Shown here piece by piece: positions 22,556 to 32,336 of a stretch of 64,000 nucleotides of DNA; the first letter of the stretch is position 1; every line of letters starts with the position of its first letter. The stretch is from Streptomyces chrestomyceticus JCM 4735. Lineage in GTDB: Bacteria > Actinomycetota > Actinomycetes > Streptomycetales > Streptomycetaceae. The stretch is from NCBI RefSeq assembly GCF_003865135.1, contig NZ_BHZC01000001.1:6076001-6140000 (forward strand). Reading direction: 5' to 3'. The position numbers and the translations under genes are program-made. The notes under the pieces were generated by a model that saw nothing but the letters and a program-made list of their open reading frames with translations, ran no database searches and was not told the DNA's origin.

Positions 22556-23797
22556 TCACCTCTTGCTGCCCGCCGTGGCGCTGGCCAGGTAGGACTCGGC
22601 GAGCGCCGCCGTCATCAGCCAGTCGTGGAAGTCCGCCGGATCGGCGTACCCGTTGACGAAACGGTGCGCCACGGCGGGGTGTTCGGCGGCGGCCACAAGC
22701 AGCCGCTGCACATGCTGCGGCAGCGGTTCCAGCATCAGGTTCGTGAACTCCGTGACCTGCCGGGCGTGCCGCCAGAACGCGGCGAAGGCCGACCGCATCC
22801 ACTCCGGATCGAAGGGCGCTCCGCCGCGCTCCAGAATCATCTCCAGGTAGACGGCCGCGCCGCGGGCCGCGGTGTTCGAGCCCTGGCCGGTGATCGGGTC
22901 GTTGGTCACGACCGCGTCCGCCATGCCCAGCACGTACGTGTCCGGCGCGACCTCGGCCACCGGATGCCGGACGACGGGGGTGACCGCGCCGTACAGCGTC
23001 GCGCCCGCGTCCGTGGGCACGGCGTCCTTGCACAGCTCGTACTCCCCGGGCGTATACGTACGCAGCAGCCCCAGCGCGCGGGACACACAACTGTCCGGCG
23101 ACGGCTGGTCGTGCCAGCAGTCGAACGGCCCGCCCGGCAGCGCCTCGAACAGCACGGTGCCGCAGGGCCCGCCCGTCGTGAGCGCCGGCAGCACGAAGAC
23201 CTCGCCGGCCCCGGCCACCGCGTTGATCCGCGCCTGCGGCTCCGGTTCGCCGGCCGGCGCCACGATGCCGCGCACGTACACGCAGGCCAGCGTGCGCTGC
23301 GGCCGGTCGAAGGGGCAGTACAGCGGATTGCGGGCGAAGATCCGGGTGAGGTCGCCGCGCCCGGAGGCGACGATCGTCAGATCGTGTTCGGCGGCGAGCG
23401 CGGGCAGCAGGGCGGGGGTGACGGAGCCGTACCGGACCCGGCCGCCCCTGGCCTCGTACAGACCGAGCCAGCCGGCCGTCTTCACCCGCTGGTCGACGGA
23501 GTGCGGCGGCTCGTCGAACTGCCCGGTGAAGGTCAGCGCGGACTTCCCGGGCGGATCCCACACCGTCACGCGCAGCGTACTCACGCCGGGCGCGGTCGCG
23601 TCCCAGAGATTGAGCCCGGCGGCGCGCTCCAGGCGCCGCGCCGGACCGAACATGAGCTGCGTCGACATCACCCGCCCGGCGCGCACTTCCTGCGCCGTAC
23701 GGTCGGTGACCAGCGTGACGTCGTAGTCCGCGGCAAGGAGAGCCAGGGCGAGATGCAGCCCCGCCTGCCCAGCGCCGACGATGGCGATCCTGCGCAT
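22556..23797 (-). CDS. Styrene/indole monooxygenase StyA-like flavoprotein
   Basis: 413 aa single-component FAD-binding protein. N-terminal GAGQAG (8-13) at the start of a Rossmann fold, then a StyA-type substrate domain: MFGPARRLERAAGL, TLRVTVWDPPG, FDEPPHSVDQRVK, and AVVTNDPITGQGSNTA late in the protein, the FAD-contact motif. Members epoxidise or hydroxylate aromatics using reduced FAD from a partner reductase (StyB). No such reductase is encoded nearby, so the electron donor must come from elsewhere. Start at 23797 is the only early Met; preceded by GGGAGGC. Confidence 0.8.
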   Translation of the reverse strand: MRRIAIVGAGQAGLHLALALLAADYDVTLVTDRTAQEVRAGRVMSTQLMFGPARRLERAAGLNLWDATAPGVSTLRVTVWDPPGKSALTFTGQFDEPPHSVDQRVKTAGWLGLYEARGGRVRYGSVTPALLPALAAEHDLTIVASGRGDLTRIFARNPLYCPFDRPQRTLACVYVRGIVAPAGEPEPQARINAVAGAGEVFVLPALTTGGPCGTVLFEALPGGPFDCWHDQPSPDSCVSRALGLLRTYTPGEYELCKDAVPTDAGATLYGAVTPVVRHPVAEVAPDTYVLGMADAVVTNDPITGQGSNTAARGAAVYLEMILERGGAPFDPEWMRSAFAAFWRHARQVTEFTNLMLEPLPQHVQRLLVAAAEHPAVAHRFVNGYADPADFHDWLMTAALAESYLASATAGSKR

Positions 23798-24007
23798 TGC
23801 TGCCTCCCCTGGGCCGACCCGGCCCGCCCCACATCGTCTTTTGTAGCGGCGGGGTGGTGCGGTGTACAGAGGGCCACAGGGCGCACGGGCGCGTCGCGCG
23901 TACTACGGGCGCGGTACGTGCGGCGGCGGCCGTACTGCCGGAGGAGGTGTACGGGTTCGCCCCGGCGGCTCGGTGGCCCGCGGCGGAACGTCCTTAGGAT
24001 TCACCGT

Positions 24008-26947
24008 ATGACTTTCCGACTCCGCGGACGACGGCTGTACGCGACGGCGGCCGTGCTGGCCGTACTTGCCGGGTCAGGCACGTGGGCGGCCGTGGCCGCG
24101 GACGACCCGCCCGCCGTGCACCGGGAGGACCGGACGTTCGCCATGCCCGAGAGCGCCGGGGGCGCCGACGGGAGCGGTGGCGGGGATAGCGGCAAGGGGA
24201 CCGGCGGGGGCGAGACGGGCGGTTCCGGGGAGGGCAAGGTCCGTATCGACGCGTCCTTCTTCACCGCGGGCGGTACCGGCCGCCGTCCCGCCGTCCTCCT
24301 CGGGCACGGCTTCGGCGGCAGCAAGGAGTCGGTACGCGGCCAGGCCGAGCAGCTCGCGCGGGACGGGTACGCCGTGCTGACCTGGTCGGCGCGCGGCTTC
24401 GGCAGGTCCACCGGAAAGATCGGGCTCAACGACCCGGACCGGGAGGTGGCCGACGTCCGCCGGCTGGTCGACTGGCTGGCGAAGCGTCCCGAGGTACGGC
24501 TCGACGGCGCGGGCGACCCACGGGTCGGCGTGGCCGGAGGCTCGTACGGAGGAGCGATCGCGCTGCTGGCGGCGGGCTACGACAAGCGTGTCGACGCGAT
24601 CGCCCCGCAGATCACGTACTGGAACCTGGCCGACGCGCTCTTTCCCAACGGCGTCTTCAAGAAGCTGTGGGCCGGGATGTTTTTCTCCACGGGGTCGGTC
24701 GGTGCGGCCGAGGGGAGTGAGGGATCTGGGGCGGCTGGGACGACGGGGGGCTCGGGAGGCGGCAGCGGCGGTGGTGCCGGTGGCGATGCGGGTACCGGTG
24801 CCGGCTCAGGTTCCGGTGCCGGATCGGGCGCCGGTGGCAGTGGGAAGTCAGCCGAGGAAGCCGCGCCCCCGCCTCAGGACAGCACCGACGGATGCGGCCG
24901 GTTCGAGCGGCAGTTGTGCGAGATGTACGAGCGGGTCGCCGTCTCCGGCAAGCCCGACGCCGCCGCCCGCGCACTCCTCGCAGCACGCAGCCCCTCCGCC
25001 GTCGCGGACCGGATCAAGGTTCCGACGCTCCTGATGCAGGGCAGAACCGATTCACTCTTCCCGCTCGGCCAGGCCGACGCGATGTACCGGGCACTCCGCG
25101 AGAACGGCGCCCCCGTCTCCGTCGACTGGCTCGCCGGCGGACACGACGGCGGCGACCGCGAGACCGGCCGTCTCGCCGACCGTACGAAGGCGTGGTTCGA
25201 CCGCTATCTGAAGGACGAGAGGGACGCCGACACCGGGCCTGCGTTCCGCGTCAGCCGCGGCGGGGCGGTGGACTCCACCAACGGCGCCGCCCGGCTGCGC
25301 GGCGCGAGCGGCGACCGCTACCCCGGCCTGGACAACGATCCGCAGCCCGTCCGCCTGACCGGCCGCGAACAGCGGTTCGCCAATCCGGCCGGGGCGAGCC
25401 CGCCGTCCATCTCCACGGTGCCCGGCGTCGGCGCGCTCAACAGCCTCTCCAGTGTCGGCGCCGGTCTCTCCCTCGACTCCCCGGGCCAGTACGCCCGTTT
25501 CGAGTCGCAGCCGCTCCGGGACCCGCTACGCGTCACCGGCGCGCCGACCGCCCGCGTACGCATCGGTTCCACCAGCGACGACGCGGTGCTCTTCGCCAAG
25601 GTGTACGACATCGGGCCGAACGGCAGCAGCCGGCCGGTGCTGCCCGCCGGGCTCGCCGAGCCGTACCGCATCACCGGCGCCAAAGCCGGCAAGAGCGTCG
25701 AACTGCGGATGCCGGCCATCGACCATGAGTTCGCGGCCGGACACCGGCTGCGCCTGGTGCTCTCCTCGACGGACCTCGCGTACGCCTCGCCCGCCGAGCC
25801 CGCCACATACACCGCCTCGCTCGAAGGCGGAAGCGGCGAAGGCGGGAGCGGCGAAGGCAGCGGCGTCCTGAACGTGCCGACCGCGCCCGCCGTCAAGAGT
25901 GCGGCGGCCCCGCTGCCTGCGTGGACCTGGGCGCTGCCCGCCGCGGGCGCGGTCGTCGCCGTACTGCTCCTGCTCGTAGGGCGGCGACGGGCCGCGGCCG
26001 GCGCACCCGACCCGGACCTGGCGGACGTACCGCTGCAGATCACCGGCCTGAGCAAGCGGTACGCCAAGTCCGCCGACCGCTACGCCGTACGGGACCTCTC
26101 CTTCCGCGTCGAGAAGGGCCAGGTGCTCGGGCTGCTCGGGCCGAACGGCGCGGGCAAGACCACCACCTTGCGGATGCTCATGGGCCTGATCGGGCCGGAC
26201 GCCGGGGAGATCCGGGTCTTCGGGCACGCGATCCGGCCCGGCGCGCCGGTGCTGTCGCGGGTCGGCGCGTTCGTCGAGGGCGCCGGTTTCCTGCCGCATT
26301 TGTCCGGACGCGCCAATCTGGACCTGTACTGGCAGGCCACCGGGCGCCCGGCCGAGGACGCGCACATCGACGAGGCGCTGGAGATCGCCGGGCTGGGCGA
26401 CGCGTTGCAGCGCGCGGTACGCACGTACTCCCAGGGGATGCGGCAGCGCCTGGCCATCGCCCAGGCCATGCTGGGCCTTCCGGACCTGCTCATCCTGGAC
26501 GAACCGACCAACGGGCTAGACCCGCCGCAGATCCGCGAGATGCGGGACGTGATGATCCGGTACGCGGCCGGTGGTCGCACCGTGATCGTCTCCAGTCATC
26601 TGCTGGCCGAGGTCGAGCAGACCTGTACGCATCTGGTCGTCATGGACCGTGGCCAGCTCGTCCAGGCGGGGCCCGTCGCCGACATCGTCGGTACCGGCGA
26701 CACCCTGCTCGTCGGTGTGGAGGGCGGCGAACCGCTGTCCGACGTCCTCCTGGACAAGGTGGCCGCGCTGCCCGGCATCGCGGCGGCCGTCCGGGCCGAC
26801 GAGGGCATGCTCGTCACGCTCGACGGCACGACGAGCACCTCGCGCCTGCTGCCCGAACTGCTCCGGCTGGAGATCCCGGTGGCCCGCATCGGCCCCCACC
26901 GGCGCCTGGAAGACGCCTTCCTCACCATGATCGGAGGTGACCGGTGA
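24008..26947 (+). CDS. Fused secreted alpha/beta-hydrolase and cytoplasmic ABC transporter ATPase
   Basis: 979 aa, three parts. (1) N-terminal membrane anchor/signal (about 9-30), then a CocE/X-Pro dipeptidyl-peptidase-type hydrolase: LLGHGFGGSKE, nucleophile Ser179 in GGSYGGA, Asp in MQGRTDS and His in LAGGHDGGD; a Gly/Ser-rich insert (about 238-282) interrupts it, and the X-Pro C-terminal jelly-roll follows (about 450-625). (2) One membrane helix (about 640-660) ending in GRRRAA. (3) ABC ATPase: Walker A GPNGAGKT at 711-718, signature YSQGMRQ near 807 (SQGM in place of SGG), Walker B LLILDEPTN. Topology implies hydrolase outside, ATPase inside. The stop overlaps the permease start (GTGA). 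Natural substrate unknown; export or sensing linked to peptide/ester hydrolysis is a guess. Confidence 0.9.
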   Translation: MTFRLRGRRLYATAAVLAVLAGSGTWAAVAADDPPAVHREDRTFAMPESAGGADGSGGGDSGKGTGGGETGGSGEGKVRIDASFFTAGGTGRRPAVLLGHGFGGSKESVRGQAEQLARDGYAVLTWSARGFGRSTGKIGLNDPDREVADVRRLVDWLAKRPEVRLDGAGDPRVGVAGGSYGGAIALLAAGYDKRVDAIAPQITYWNLADALFPNGVFKKLWAGMFFSTGSVGAAEGSEGSGAAGTTGGSGGGSGGGAGGDAGTGAGSGSGAGSGAGGSGKSAEEAAPPPQDSTDGCGRFERQLCEMYERVAVSGKPDAAARALLAARSPSAVADRIKVPTLLMQGRTDSLFPLGQADAMYRALRENGAPVSVDWLAGGHDGGDRETGRLADRTKAWFDRYLKDERDADTGPAFRVSRGGAVDSTNGAARLRGASGDRYPGLDNDPQPVRLTGREQRFANPAGASPPSISTVPGVGALNSLSSVGAGLSLDSPGQYARFESQPLRDPLRVTGAPTARVRIGSTSDDAVLFAKVYDIGPNGSSRPVLPAGLAEPYRITGAKAGKSVELRMPAIDHEFAAGHRLRLVLSSTDLAYASPAEPATYTASLEGGSGEGGSGEGSGVLNVPTAPAVKSAAAPLPAWTWALPAAGAVVAVLLLLVGRRRAAAGAPDPDLADVPLQITGLSKRYAKSADRYAVRDLSFRVEKGQVLGLLGPNGAGKTTTLRMLMGLIGPDAGEIRVFGHAIRPGAPVLSRVGAFVEGAGFLPHLSGRANLDLYWQATGRPAEDAHIDEALEIAGLGDALQRAVRTYSQGMRQRLAIAQAMLGLPDLLILDEPTNGLDPPQIREMRDVMIRYAAGGRTVIVSSHLLAEVEQTCTHLVVMDRGQLVQAGPVADIVGTGDTLLVGVEGGEPLSDVLLDKVAALPGIAAAVRADEGMLVTLDGTTSTSRLLPELLRLEIPVARIGPHRRLEDAFLTMIGGDR

Positions 26948-27936
26948 CCCCCGTCACCGAGCCCGGCAACGACGGGCAGCCCGCGCGCTCCGGTGGAACC
27001 GCGCCCTCCGGCGGGCCCACGCTCGCCGACGAGCCCGCGCGCGCCAGTGGTTCCACGCTCTCCGGCGGGCCCGCGGGCTCGTCCGTGTCCGGCGCGCCGC
27101 ACGCTCCCGGTTACCGTCCGCGCCGGACCCTGCCGCTGCGCGTCGAGGCGATGCGGCAGCTCAGACGGCGCCGCACGCTGGTCATCGGCGCGATCCTGGC
27201 GGTACTGCCGTTCGTCCTGGTCGCGGCCTTCGCGATCGGCGGCGAACCGGGCGGCCGCAACAACCGGATCACCCTGATGGACACCGCGACCGCCTCCGGC
27301 GCCAACTTCACCGCGACCGTCCTGTTCGTCTCGGCGGGCTTTCTGCTCGTCGTCCCCGTGGCGCTGTTCTGCGGGGACACGGTCGCCTCCGAGGCGAGCT
27401 GGTCCTCGCTGCGCTATCTGCTCGCGGCGCCCGTCCCGCGCACCCGGCTGCTGCTGAGCAAACTCACCGTCGCCCTGGTCTTCAGTGCGGCGGCGATGGT
27501 GCTGCTGCCGCTGGTCGCCCTCGGCGTCGGAACCGCCGCGTACGGATGGGGACCGCTGCAACTGCCGACCGGAGGCGCGCTCGCCGCCGGTGACGCGCTG
27601 CCCCGCCTCGCGCTCGCCGTCGCGTACATCTTCGTCAGCCAGCTCGTCACGGCGGCCCTCGCCTTCTGGCTCTCCACGGTGACGGACGCGCCGCTGGGCG
27701 CGGTCGGCGGCGCGGTCGGCCTGACCATCGTCGGCAATGTGCTGGACCAGGTCACCGCCCTGGACCAGTGGCGCGACTTCCTGCCGGCGCACTGGCAGTT
27801 CGCCTGGGCCGACGCGCTCCAGCCGCAGCTCGACGGTACGGGCATGCTCCAGGGGGCGTCGGTCTCCGTGGCGTACGCGCTGGTGCTGTTCGCGCTGGCG
27901 TTCCGGGGGTTCGGGAAGAAGGACATCGTGTCGTAG
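26944..27936 (+). CDS. ABC-2 type transporter permease
   Basis: 330 aa membrane partner of the preceding hydrolase-ATPase fusion; GTG start at 26944 overlaps its TGA. A Ser/Gly/Pro-rich N-terminal tail of about 55 residues precedes six predicted helices; conserved segments include GDTVASEASWSSLRYLLAAPVPRTRLLLSKL, typical of ABC-2/YwaF-like permeases with the ATPase-contact helix. The pair forms a half-size exporter, presumably homodimeric. Confidence 0.87.
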   Translation: MTPVTEPGNDGQPARSGGTAPSGGPTLADEPARASGSTLSGGPAGSSVSGAPHAPGYRPRRTLPLRVEAMRQLRRRRTLVIGAILAVLPFVLVAAFAIGGEPGGRNNRITLMDTATASGANFTATVLFVSAGFLLVVPVALFCGDTVASEASWSSLRYLLAAPVPRTRLLLSKLTVALVFSAAAMVLLPLVALGVGTAAYGWGPLQLPTGGALAAGDALPRLALAVAYIFVSQLVTAALAFWLSTVTDAPLGAVGGAVGLTIVGNVLDQVTALDQWRDFLPAHWQFAWADALQPQLDGTGMLQGASVSVAYALVLFALAFRGFGKKDIVS

Positions 27937-30080: not shown

Positions 30081-32336
30081 ATGACCTGGTCGCGAGCGCT
30101 GAAGAAGACCGCCCGCTCCGGGCTGACCATCGAGAAGGCCAAGCTCACCCCGCTGATCGCGATCCGCGGCTCGGTCGGTGTCGCGATCGTCATCGGCCTG
30201 TGCCTCTATCTCGGCAACCCGGCCCTCGCGGTCTCGTCGGCCTTCGGCGCGTTCGCCGCCGGCATCGCCACCTTCCAGCGCAGTTGGCGGCCCCGGCCCG
30301 TACTGGCCCTCGCGGTCGCGGGCGGCCTCTCCGTCTCCACCTTCCTCGGCTACCTGGCCGCCTCGCACATCGTCGGCTTCCTGGTCCTGCTCTCCCTGTG
30401 GACCTTCCTGGCCGGCCTGGCCTGGTCGGTCGGGCCGGTGTCCGGACTGGTCGGCACCCAGACCGTCTCGGTCATGCTCGTCACCGTCACGCTGCCGACC
30501 TCGATCCTCGGCGCCCTGGAGCACGCGGCCATCATCGCGTTCGGCGGGTTCGTCCAGGCCGCGCTGATCGTGCTCTTTCCCGTACGGCCATGGGGTGTGC
30601 AGCGCGACGCGCTCGCCGACGCGCTGGCCGCCGAAGCGGACTACGCGCGCCGGCTGCGGCACGACCCGGTGGCCCCCTTCGACCCGCAGCCCCTGATGGA
30701 CGCGCGCCTCGCCTCCGCCGTGACCCCGCGTCAGGCCAAGCGCCGTCCCGTCCAACTGCACGGCCCCCGGGCGCTGGCCGAGCAGGTCAGGCCGGTGCTG
30801 GCGTCGCTCGCCGACCCGGTCGTCGGCGCGCCCGTGGAAGGGCCCGAACGCGACCGGGCGCGCGAACTGCTCGGCGCGGCCGCCACCGTGCTGGACGCCG
30901 TCGCCACCGCCATCCGGCGCGGCAAGCCCGTACGCCTGCCGCCCGAGGCGATGGCCACCCTCGAAATGCCGCAGGACGGTGACGGGCCGCGGCTGACCGG
31001 TGCCGCCCGCCGCTCCGCGCTGCGGCTGATCTCGCTGCTCGCCGACGCCGTGGAGTTCACCGACGAGCCCGTCCAGGCCACCCGGCCCACCACCGAGGCG
31101 GAGCGCGGGCATCTGCTGCGCCCGAGTGTGCCGAAGCTGGTGCCGGTGGCGCTGCGTGCCGTGCGCCGTGAGATCCGCTGGTCCTCGCACATCTTCCGGC
31201 ACGCGCTGCGCGTCAGCGCGGTGGCCGCCGCGGGGTACCTCATCGGCCAGGCGCTGCCCTTCGGCCACGGGTACTGGGCGCCGCTGGCCTCGGTGATGGT
31301 GATGCGGCCCGACTTCGGGCAGACGTACTCGCGCGGCGTCGCACGGTTCATCGGCACCCTGGTCGGCGTCGCGGTGGGCGGCGCGATCATGGGCCTCACC
31401 CACCCGAACCTGTACGTCAGCGCGGCGCTGGCGGTCGTGTGCGTCCTGGCGATGTACCTGCTGATGCGTACGGGAGTGTCGGTGACCTCGGCGTGCGTCG
31501 CCGCGTACGTCGTCTTCCTGCTCGGCATCGCGGGCGCCGGCTGGGAACAGACCGTCCAGGAACGGGTCGTCCTCACCCTCCTGGGCGGCCTGCTGGCCAT
31601 GCTGTCCTACGCGCTCTTCCCCGCCTGGGAGACGCCGCGGCTGCGCGAACGGCTGGCCCAGTGGCTGGAGGCCAACGGCCGGTACGCCATCGCCGTCTTC
31701 GACAGCTACGCGCGGCCCGCCGAACGCCGTCCCCGCCAGGTCCGCGAAGCCCTCCTGGACGCCCGCGCGGCCCGCGCCGCCTGGGAGGAGAGCGAGGCGC
31801 GCGCCGAGAAGGAGCCGGTGCGCCACCGCGGACTGTCGTTGAGCGCGGCGGCGTCGGCTCAGTCCGCCTTGTCCACGATGGGCCGGGTGACGATGATTCT
31901 GGAAGCGCACCTTCCGGACAAGGACGCGGAACCTTCACCGGGGGCCCAGACGTTCACCGAAGAGCTGCGCGAGTCCCTGCCGCGCGCGGTCGACGCCGTA
32001 CGGGAGCGGCGCGACCTGGACTGGAGCGCGTTGCGCGCCGTATGGGAGGAGTGGGCCGCGCAGTCCGAGACCCGAGGCGTCGCGCTGCGCGGCGCCGAAC
32101 TGCTCCTGGACGCGCTGGACGACCTGGCCGAGGCCCTGTCCCGCGGCCCCGGCGGCAGGAACCGGGCGACGCGGGGAGCAGGGGACACGGGAGGGACGCG
32201 GAGAGTGGGAGACACGGGAGGAACGCGGAAAGTGACGGACACCGGAGGGAGACGGGAAGTGGGGGACACGGGAGGCGCGAGGGCGGTGCGGGAGAACGGC
32301 GGGCCGGGCGTCTCGCGGACGTCGGCGTCGGGCTGA
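30081..32336 (+). CDS. FUSC-family membrane protein (aromatic-acid exporter-like)
   Basis: 751 aa. Two hydrophobic blocks of about six helices each (residues about 30-165 and 380-515), the second being the FUSC domain (GHGYWAPLASVMVMRPDFGQTYSRGVARFIGTLVG); a cytoplasmic region lies between and another after. Family members (AaeB, YccS, plant ALMT-like) move small organic anions. Odd: the last 50 residues carry four tandem 9-residue repeats (GDTGGTRRV type). The in-frame ATG at 30081 begins directly with a conserved basic TM-proximal segment; no competing start. Confidence 0.85.
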   Translation: MTWSRALKKTARSGLTIEKAKLTPLIAIRGSVGVAIVIGLCLYLGNPALAVSSAFGAFAAGIATFQRSWRPRPVLALAVAGGLSVSTFLGYLAASHIVGFLVLLSLWTFLAGLAWSVGPVSGLVGTQTVSVMLVTVTLPTSILGALEHAAIIAFGGFVQAALIVLFPVRPWGVQRDALADALAAEADYARRLRHDPVAPFDPQPLMDARLASAVTPRQAKRRPVQLHGPRALAEQVRPVLASLADPVVGAPVEGPERDRARELLGAAATVLDAVATAIRRGKPVRLPPEAMATLEMPQDGDGPRLTGAARRSALRLISLLADAVEFTDEPVQATRPTTEAERGHLLRPSVPKLVPVALRAVRREIRWSSHIFRHALRVSAVAAAGYLIGQALPFGHGYWAPLASVMVMRPDFGQTYSRGVARFIGTLVGVAVGGAIMGLTHPNLYVSAALAVVCVLAMYLLMRTGVSVTSACVAAYVVFLLGIAGAGWEQTVQERVVLTLLGGLLAMLSYALFPAWETPRLRERLAQWLEANGRYAIAVFDSYARPAERRPRQVREALLDARAARAAWEESEARAEKEPVRHRGLSLSAAASAQSALSTMGRVTMILEAHLPDKDAEPSPGAQTFTEELRESLPRAVDAVRERRDLDWSALRAVWEEWAAQSETRGVALRGAELLLDALDDLAEALSRGPGGRNRATRGAGDTGGTRRVGDTGGTRKVTDTGGRREVGDTGGARAVRENGGPGVSRTSASG
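32181..32288 (+). repeat. Four 27-bp tandem repeats inside the FUSC gene
   Basis: Four in-frame 27-bp units encode GDTGGTRRV, GDTGGTRKV, TDTGGRREV and GDTGGARAV at the extreme C-terminus of the membrane protein. Confidence 0.85.

Follow-up and report, generated by a model that had tools for sequence, protein, structure and literature searches.

ATPase subunits of the class considered here, which belongs to ATP-binding cassette (ABC) systems, are normally soluble and lie on the cytoplasmic side of the membrane. Why, then, does a gene of Streptomyces chrestomyceticus JCM 4735 carry such an ATPase on the same chain as a predicted secreted hydrolase? The gene lies in the window that we analysed, a stretch of 64,000 nucleotides (contig NZ_BHZC01000001.1, positions 6,076,001 to 6,140,000), and encodes, in this order, an N-terminal signal or anchor helix, a CocE/S15-type serine hydrolase, one membrane helix and a complete ABC ATPase. 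An ABC-2 permease gene follows directly (Table 1).

A hydrolase and an ABC ATPase in one reading frame

An initial annotation of this DNA had described a single 979-residue chain overlapping an ABC-2 permease gene, and our analysis confirmed the open reading frame (ORF), its length, start and stop, and the overlap. The frame (24008-26947, + strand) runs uninterrupted for 979 residues from an ATG at 24008, 5′ of which AGGA is found at 23996-23999, to a TGA at 26945-26947; the GTG start of the permease gene (26944-26946) overlaps the fusion gene at this stop by 4 bases, and the two genes have an operon-like layout. Among the matches listed, the closest protein was a Streptomyces paromomycinus entry (95% over the queried part). 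Sequences of the family are present in public databases with generic names, namely 'alpha/beta fold hydrolase' and 'ABC-2 type transport system ATP-binding protein'.

Table 1. Features of the fusion gene and the adjoining permease gene, in window coordinates (pLDDT, predicted local distance difference test).
Feature	Position	Strand	Basis
Fusion gene: predicted secreted hydrolase, membrane helix, ABC ATPase; 979 residues	24008..26947	+	ORF, Pfam, structure model
N-terminal hydrophobic helix, residues 8-29, signal peptide or anchor	24029..24094	+	hydropathy, model
Predicted extracytoplasmic hydrolase, residues 33-626: alpha/beta core and PepX_C beta domain	24104..25885	+	Pfam, model, PaL lipase alignment over 34-626
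Catalytic Ser179 (G-x-S-Y-G)	24542..24544	+	alignments
Hypervariable disordered Gly/Ser-rich loop, residues 230-293	24695..24886	+	alignment, conservation, pLDDT
Conserved pair Cys296/Cys304 beside the loop, probable disulphide	24893..24919	+	alignments
Catalytic Asp348	25049..25051	+	alignments, structure comparison
Catalytic His379	25142..25144	+	alignments, structure comparison
Membrane helix, residues 638-657, then Arg-rich stop-transfer	25919..25978	+	hydropathy, conservation, model
ABC ATPase, residues 674-979, with C-terminal extension	26027..26944	+	Pfam, structure search, alignment
GGAGG, likely permease ribosome-binding site, within the fusion 3′ end	26933..26937	+	read from sequence
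ABC-2 (type V fold) permease, 330 residues	26944..27936	+	ORF, Pfam, fold comparison

The hydrolase half matched Pfam Peptidase_S15 (residues 94-367, 75.6 bits against a gathering score of 23) and PepX_C (residues 490-600, 52.4 versus 22.5 bits), and scored 104.2 bits with TIGR00976 CocE_NonD, above the curated cut-off of 66.3. Its earlier label, X-Pro-peptidase/CocE-type, agrees with these matches, but 'X-Pro peptidase' is a clan-level name and the nearest solved structure is that of a lipase: on structure comparison, aligned over residues 34-626, PaL lipase came first and cocaine esterase next. The modelled fold leans towards an ester rather than a peptide substrate. The full catalytic triad proposed around Ser179 is intact, Ser179, Asp348 and His379 being invariant in 41/41 aligned family members and in 237/237 relatives (all 120 of one listing and 117 of the 120 in another, with three proteins shorter than 780 residues excluded). 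The GxSY motif is likewise kept in 33/33 fused and 18/18 stand-alone rows.

A 45-residue Gly/Ser insert reported within the hydrolase is indeed present, inside a disordered stretch of 64 residues with pLDDT below 50 (residues 230-293), but it is not a distinct element. At the insert site the 41 aligned members carry between 5 and 73 residues, and mean pairwise identity falls to 0.09 in the loop columns against 0.68 in the hydrolase core; the insert is a hypervariable surface loop beside a cysteine pair. These two cysteines, Cys296 and Cys304, lie eight residues apart, and in most aligned members the hydrolase domain has no others. Both are retained in 40/41 members and 237/237 relatives, a like-spaced pair occurs in 15 of the 18 stand-alone hydrolase relatives described below, and both cysteines are lost together in L038 and, as judged by eye, in L040.

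The ATPase half (Pfam ABC_tran at residues 695-835) had been called intact, and rightly so: K717 of Walker A, the SxGMxQ signature (S808, G810), D831-E832 of Walker B with its Glu, and H864 of the H-loop are present in 41/41 aligned members. Its fold resembles NosF and ABCA/ABCG, with NosDFY among the nearest ATPases. Similarity to the drug-efflux ATPases DrrA and Rv1218c was also found; a score of 171.7 bits, below the curated cut-off of 312.45, leaves the protein outside the DrrA family TIGR01188. The permease belongs to ABC2_membrane_2/4 (ABC2_membrane_2, 53 bits versus 27.2) and is NosY/ABCG2-like on fold comparison, with NosDFY nearest. By sequence, one search for solved permease structures returned three weak, chance-like matches and no plausible relative (best E 0.062), and a second search returned none.

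Two other ABC ATPase genes were encountered. The closest ATPase paralogue in the same genome (L171 4565-7861, 42%) stands with its permease behind a DUF2092 protein and is possibly part of another envelope lipid exporter. In a different genome, the fusion gene is immediately preceded by an extra frame for an ABC ATPase (L043 5956-7308).

Distribution and origin of the fusion

Could the chain be an artefact, two genes merged by assembly or annotation? In a scan of named genomes, hydrolase and ATPase lay in one frame, with a permease homologue downstream on the same strand, at 80/80 loci; these are the best 80 of 589 confirmed, so the set favours true relatives. They come from Streptomyces, Kitasatospora, Streptacidiphilus, Embleya, Geodermatophilaceae and Frankiaceae, and further from Micromonosporaceae, Streptosporangiaceae, Actinomadura, Pseudonocardia and Salsipaludibacter, among others, and at one of them (L085) the frame stops early within the ATPase. 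All of the 120 best-scoring proteins listed, from 5027 matches, carry S15, PepX_C and ABC_tran. A draw of 296 genomes across the phylum gave 15 hydrolase matches at E up to 1e-40, every one fused (15/15), and the permease stood beside the fusion in 14/14 of those genomes other than that of the window. At least one genome, Salsipaludibacter, is common to the named and the phylum sets. Further fused loci whose flanks were read had the permease adjacent in 11/11 cases.

We also searched with a model of the junction (A3: PepX_C, helix, ATPase), built from 25 rows. It matched 105/394 genomes of the class at E up to 1e-55, including 36/40 in the window's genus. Across the phylum, 25/396 genomes were matched over the junction at E up to 1.3e-72; the matches below those start at 8e-49, and nearly all the listed ones cover the ATPase side only. 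The single frame at 80/80 loci and the continuous junction in 105/394 genomes rule out a merging error, to which we assign a negligible probability. The same counts, together with the 14/14 adjoining permeases, bear out the expectation that fusion and ABC-2 permease would be conserved across actinobacteria.

The fusion is also present in seven genomes of 1.3-1.9 Mb from one family, and a close relative (86% over the queried part) comes from strain IMCC25003. This strain is described as a freshwater acI bacterium whose genome is the smallest in a group of four (1.35-1.55 Mb; PMC5301498). Two genomes (G309 and G431) hold two fusion copies each. A record titled Bacillus sp. AZ43, flagged unverified (L103), contains a copy that matches like those of Blastococcus (45% and 63%), and its organism label is probably wrong. 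Two other readings of the gene were rejected. Mobile cargo as the general case was ruled out, as the junction was matched in 1 of 72,556 plasmid records (Tsukamurella); as to anti-phage defence, three PADLOC matches lie in the ATPase region only.

How did the two halves come together? Eighteen more distant, putatively secreted hydrolases (29-38% BLAST identity, three of them over the first 60% only) have no ATPase in frame, and their fetched flanks, which are short for some, e.g. L160, yielded no match above 45 bits to either an ATPase or a permease. In 14 of 16 such relatives examined, a hydrophobic segment precedes the hydrolase. As read from their ends, 15 of the 16 stop within some 20 residues of a strand of the LxLP/LxVP type, beyond which the fusion carries on into its linker, membrane helix and ATPase. 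The exception (L150 4193-6601) bears an LPNTG-type C-terminal sorting sequence, which suggests that it is probably anchored to the cell wall. The genome of the window itself has a stand-alone paralogue (L170 6193-8940, 32% identity), again with a hydrophobic segment ahead. Conversely, three ATPase-permease pairs (L182, L184 and L185; about 50% ATPase and 36% permease identity) lack a hydrolase among the genes called in the retrieved DNA.

Homologues encoded as separate genes had been named as a possible refutation of the fusion. Separate halves do exist, but the stand-alone hydrolases lie across one branch of the tree, and the fused loci that were read keep the permease. In the hydrolase tree this branch splits 32 fused from 18 stand-alone rows (support 80/78), and a single change between the two states was found in 78% of 200 bootstrap trees; the simplest reading of these trees is origin by one fusion event. 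The fused hydrolase, the ATPase and the permease have diverged in step (r 0.87-0.90; 22 loci, 231 pairs), which is what vertical inheritance would predict.

Membrane topology and candidate modes of action

On which side of the membrane would each half work? The N-terminal helix has 4 K/R and no D/E in the residues before its hydropathy peak, and the 15 residues after helix 638-657, an Arg-rich stretch, include 3 K/R and 3 D/E. Under the positive-inside rule, the charge pattern at both helices places the hydrolase outside and the ATPase inside, and the paired keeping and joint loss of the cysteines fits a disulphide and hence an extracytoplasmic domain. These sequence features strongly suggest an outside hydrolase and an inside ATPase, and thus support the layout that the initial annotation had paired with an ABC-2 permease. 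Its 'single membrane helix' is correct only if helix 8-29 is a cleaved signal peptide; the chain itself has two hydrophobic helices (8-29 and 638-657). When the 41 rows were scanned for hydropathy, 32 showed exactly two segments; of the others, 5 had three, 3 had one and a single row had four.

We consider it somewhat probable that the system is an ABC-2 (type V) exporter whose ATPase subunit tethers an outside CocE/PaL-like esterase that cleaves an emerging hydrophobic compound. By analogy with type V exporters, the transporter would consist of two copies each of the fusion chain and the permease, and both hydrolase domains would sit at the external membrane surface, next to the exit of the permease. 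Powered by ATP hydrolysis, it would carry an acylated or ester compound of hydrophobic or amphipathic character across the membrane, or extract it from there, and the tethered esterase would cleave this compound on emergence. Export direction, ester-type substrate and channelling from exit to enzyme are parts of this scheme that we infer; an exported ester or peptide might possibly be matured or detoxified in this way.

The spacing around the helix bears on how closely the two activities might be linked. Counted on the alignment, a method able to favour even lengths, the spacer from the invariant Pro624 to the helix is 13 residues in 40/41 rows, the helix segment 22 residues in 30 and 26 in 9 of the 41, and the spacer from helix to ATPase 17 residues in 31/41. 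Spacers this constant across 43-97% identity suggest a fixed geometry. Together with the lack of any split remnant in genus genomes without the fusion, they suggest more than a loose tether, a reading in which the enzyme would merely be fixed at the membrane 1:1 with the transporter, both serving one pathway but uncoupled, so that export and hydrolysis could run independently. Such a tether is nonetheless consistent with the stand-alone relatives, which suggest that the enzyme can work without a transporter, with the modular parts (15/16 stand-alones end shortly past the strand that starts the linker, and hydrolase-free ATPase-permease pairs exist) and with a helix conserved less than hydrolase or ATPase. 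We regard it as rather unlikely.

Several points weigh against the esterase-bearing exporter proposed above. The system is absent from 4/40 genomes of the genus and so is not essential there; these four (G171, G563, G667 and G729) gave ATPase-side matches only, at E up to 1e-30, and no split remnant. Identity in the membrane helix (0.46) is below that of both the ATPase (0.77) and the hydrolase core (0.68), so that helix-specific coupling is not evident, and the drop in model confidence at the helix ends also argues against tight coupling. ABC systems of the ABC-2/type V fold need not export; NosDFY acts otherwise. In the neighbourhood comparison no gene besides the permease recurs in more than 5/39 loci, and the neighbourhood points to no pathway. 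Finally, some ATPase-only entries of about 300-450 residues on long contigs share more than 80% identity with this ATPase (among them P0242, P0255 and P0257), and many other entries in that list are marked partial. The former could be genuinely split genes, or could reflect a frameshift or the choice of start in annotation; they leave the overall picture unchanged. We prefer channelling, or co-localisation at the exit, to a mechanical link between hydrolysis and export.

The likeness of the ATPase to DrrA and Rv1218c, and the broad specificity that CocE/esterase folds can have, would also suit detoxification or self-protection, in which toxic esters or amphiphiles would be pumped out and then broken down outside by the enzyme. 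Vertical inheritance, the single match among the plasmid records, the occurrence in streamlined freshwater genomes and the lack of recurring neighbours other than the permease all speak against this role, which we think very improbable.

As to the locus itself, homologues of two upstream genes, for a thiamine pyrophosphate (TPP) enzyme and an aldehyde dehydrogenase, lie near the fusion in several same-genus loci, which we take as chromosomal synteny. A Styrene-monooxygenase-A-like protein (Smoa_sbd; 22556-23797, - strand) is encoded divergently from the fusion gene, with 210 bases between them. Close downstream is a second, unrelated putative esterase (PF00756; 28741-29913, - strand), with a lipoprotein-like N-terminal region by eye. 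The window also encodes a FUSC-like (fusaric acid resistance-like) membrane protein (30081-32336, + strand).

Comparison with known systems

Which known systems come closest? PaL lipase (PDB 8yzn) and CocE (1ju3) are free enzymes of about 505-575 residues with 20-27% identity to the hydrolase, whereas here a membrane helix and an ABC ATPase follow the hydrolase and a disordered loop is inserted. In NosDFY (7o0y), NosF and NosY are like the ATPase and permease described here, but NosF is a free cytoplasmic subunit and NosD a separate extracytoplasmic protein that is not a serine hydrolase; in our system the predicted outside hydrolase is on the ATPase chain. Peptidase-containing ABC transporters (PCAT) do carry enzyme and ABC motor on one chain and process what they export, by means of a cytoplasmic C39 cysteine peptidase joined to a membrane domain and an ATPase. 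Neither the C39 peptidase nor the ABC membrane domain was among the 11 Pfam families found at E up to 0.01.

FtsEX offers another parallel, as its ABC ATPase acts with extracytoplasmic peptidoglycan hydrolases and switches these cell-wall enzymes; there the partners are separate proteins and the permease is of another type, whereas here there is one chain, an ABC-2 permease and a lipase/esterase-like enzyme. By this analogy, nothing would cross the membrane, and the ATP cycle, acting via the permease, would switch the hydrolase, or bring it into position, for action on an envelope ester. The covalent link to the ATPase and the constant spacers are compatible with such control, retention in genomes of 1.3-1.9 Mb suggests an envelope role, and NosDFY, which has the nearest permease fold and is among the nearest ATPases, is an ABC system with an extracytoplasmic partner. 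We nevertheless think this mode quite unlikely, as the permease is of the ABC-2/type V and not the FtsX/MacB type, and as the enzyme resembles lipases and esterases, Pfam having detected no cell-wall hydrolase domain in it.

The nearest published relative in kind that we found is TC 3.A.1.145 (Myxococcus Q1D520), an ABC-2 permease with 13 predicted helices and a C-terminal peptidase M1 domain (PMC3924187). In that ABC-2 system, too, one chain includes a hydrolytic enzyme, but there a zinc peptidase is placed at the permease C-terminus, whereas here a serine hydrolase is joined to the ATPase N-terminus via one helix (PMC3924187). The present permease matched only ABC2_membrane families (three Pfam matches, E up to 0.01) and falls outside both TC 3.A.1.145 and the FtsX/MacB type. 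Targeted searches of a library of open-licence papers turned up no account of the hydrolase-helix-ATPase architecture. The parts are ordinary; it is their joining that is unusual and conserved.

These data describe a deeply conserved family with motor and predicted extracellular serine hydrolase on one chain, whose checked active-site residues are kept in 237/237 relatives and which is common to Streptomyces and a 1.35-Mb freshwater acI genome. The identity of its substrate might reveal a lipid or ester step of actinobacterial envelopes that has gone unrecognised, and the S179 and Walker-B sites make the coupling of outside chemistry to inside ATP use directly testable. A bolder reading, which we think less likely than not, is that these are phylum-wide ABC machines with a membrane-spanning ATPase subunit and an outside enzyme, in which ATP would drive the delivery of an acylated or lipid-like ester into the active site, or switch the enzyme. 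If true, actinobacteria, even very small free-living ones, would possess an energised extracellular hydrolase for envelope maintenance.

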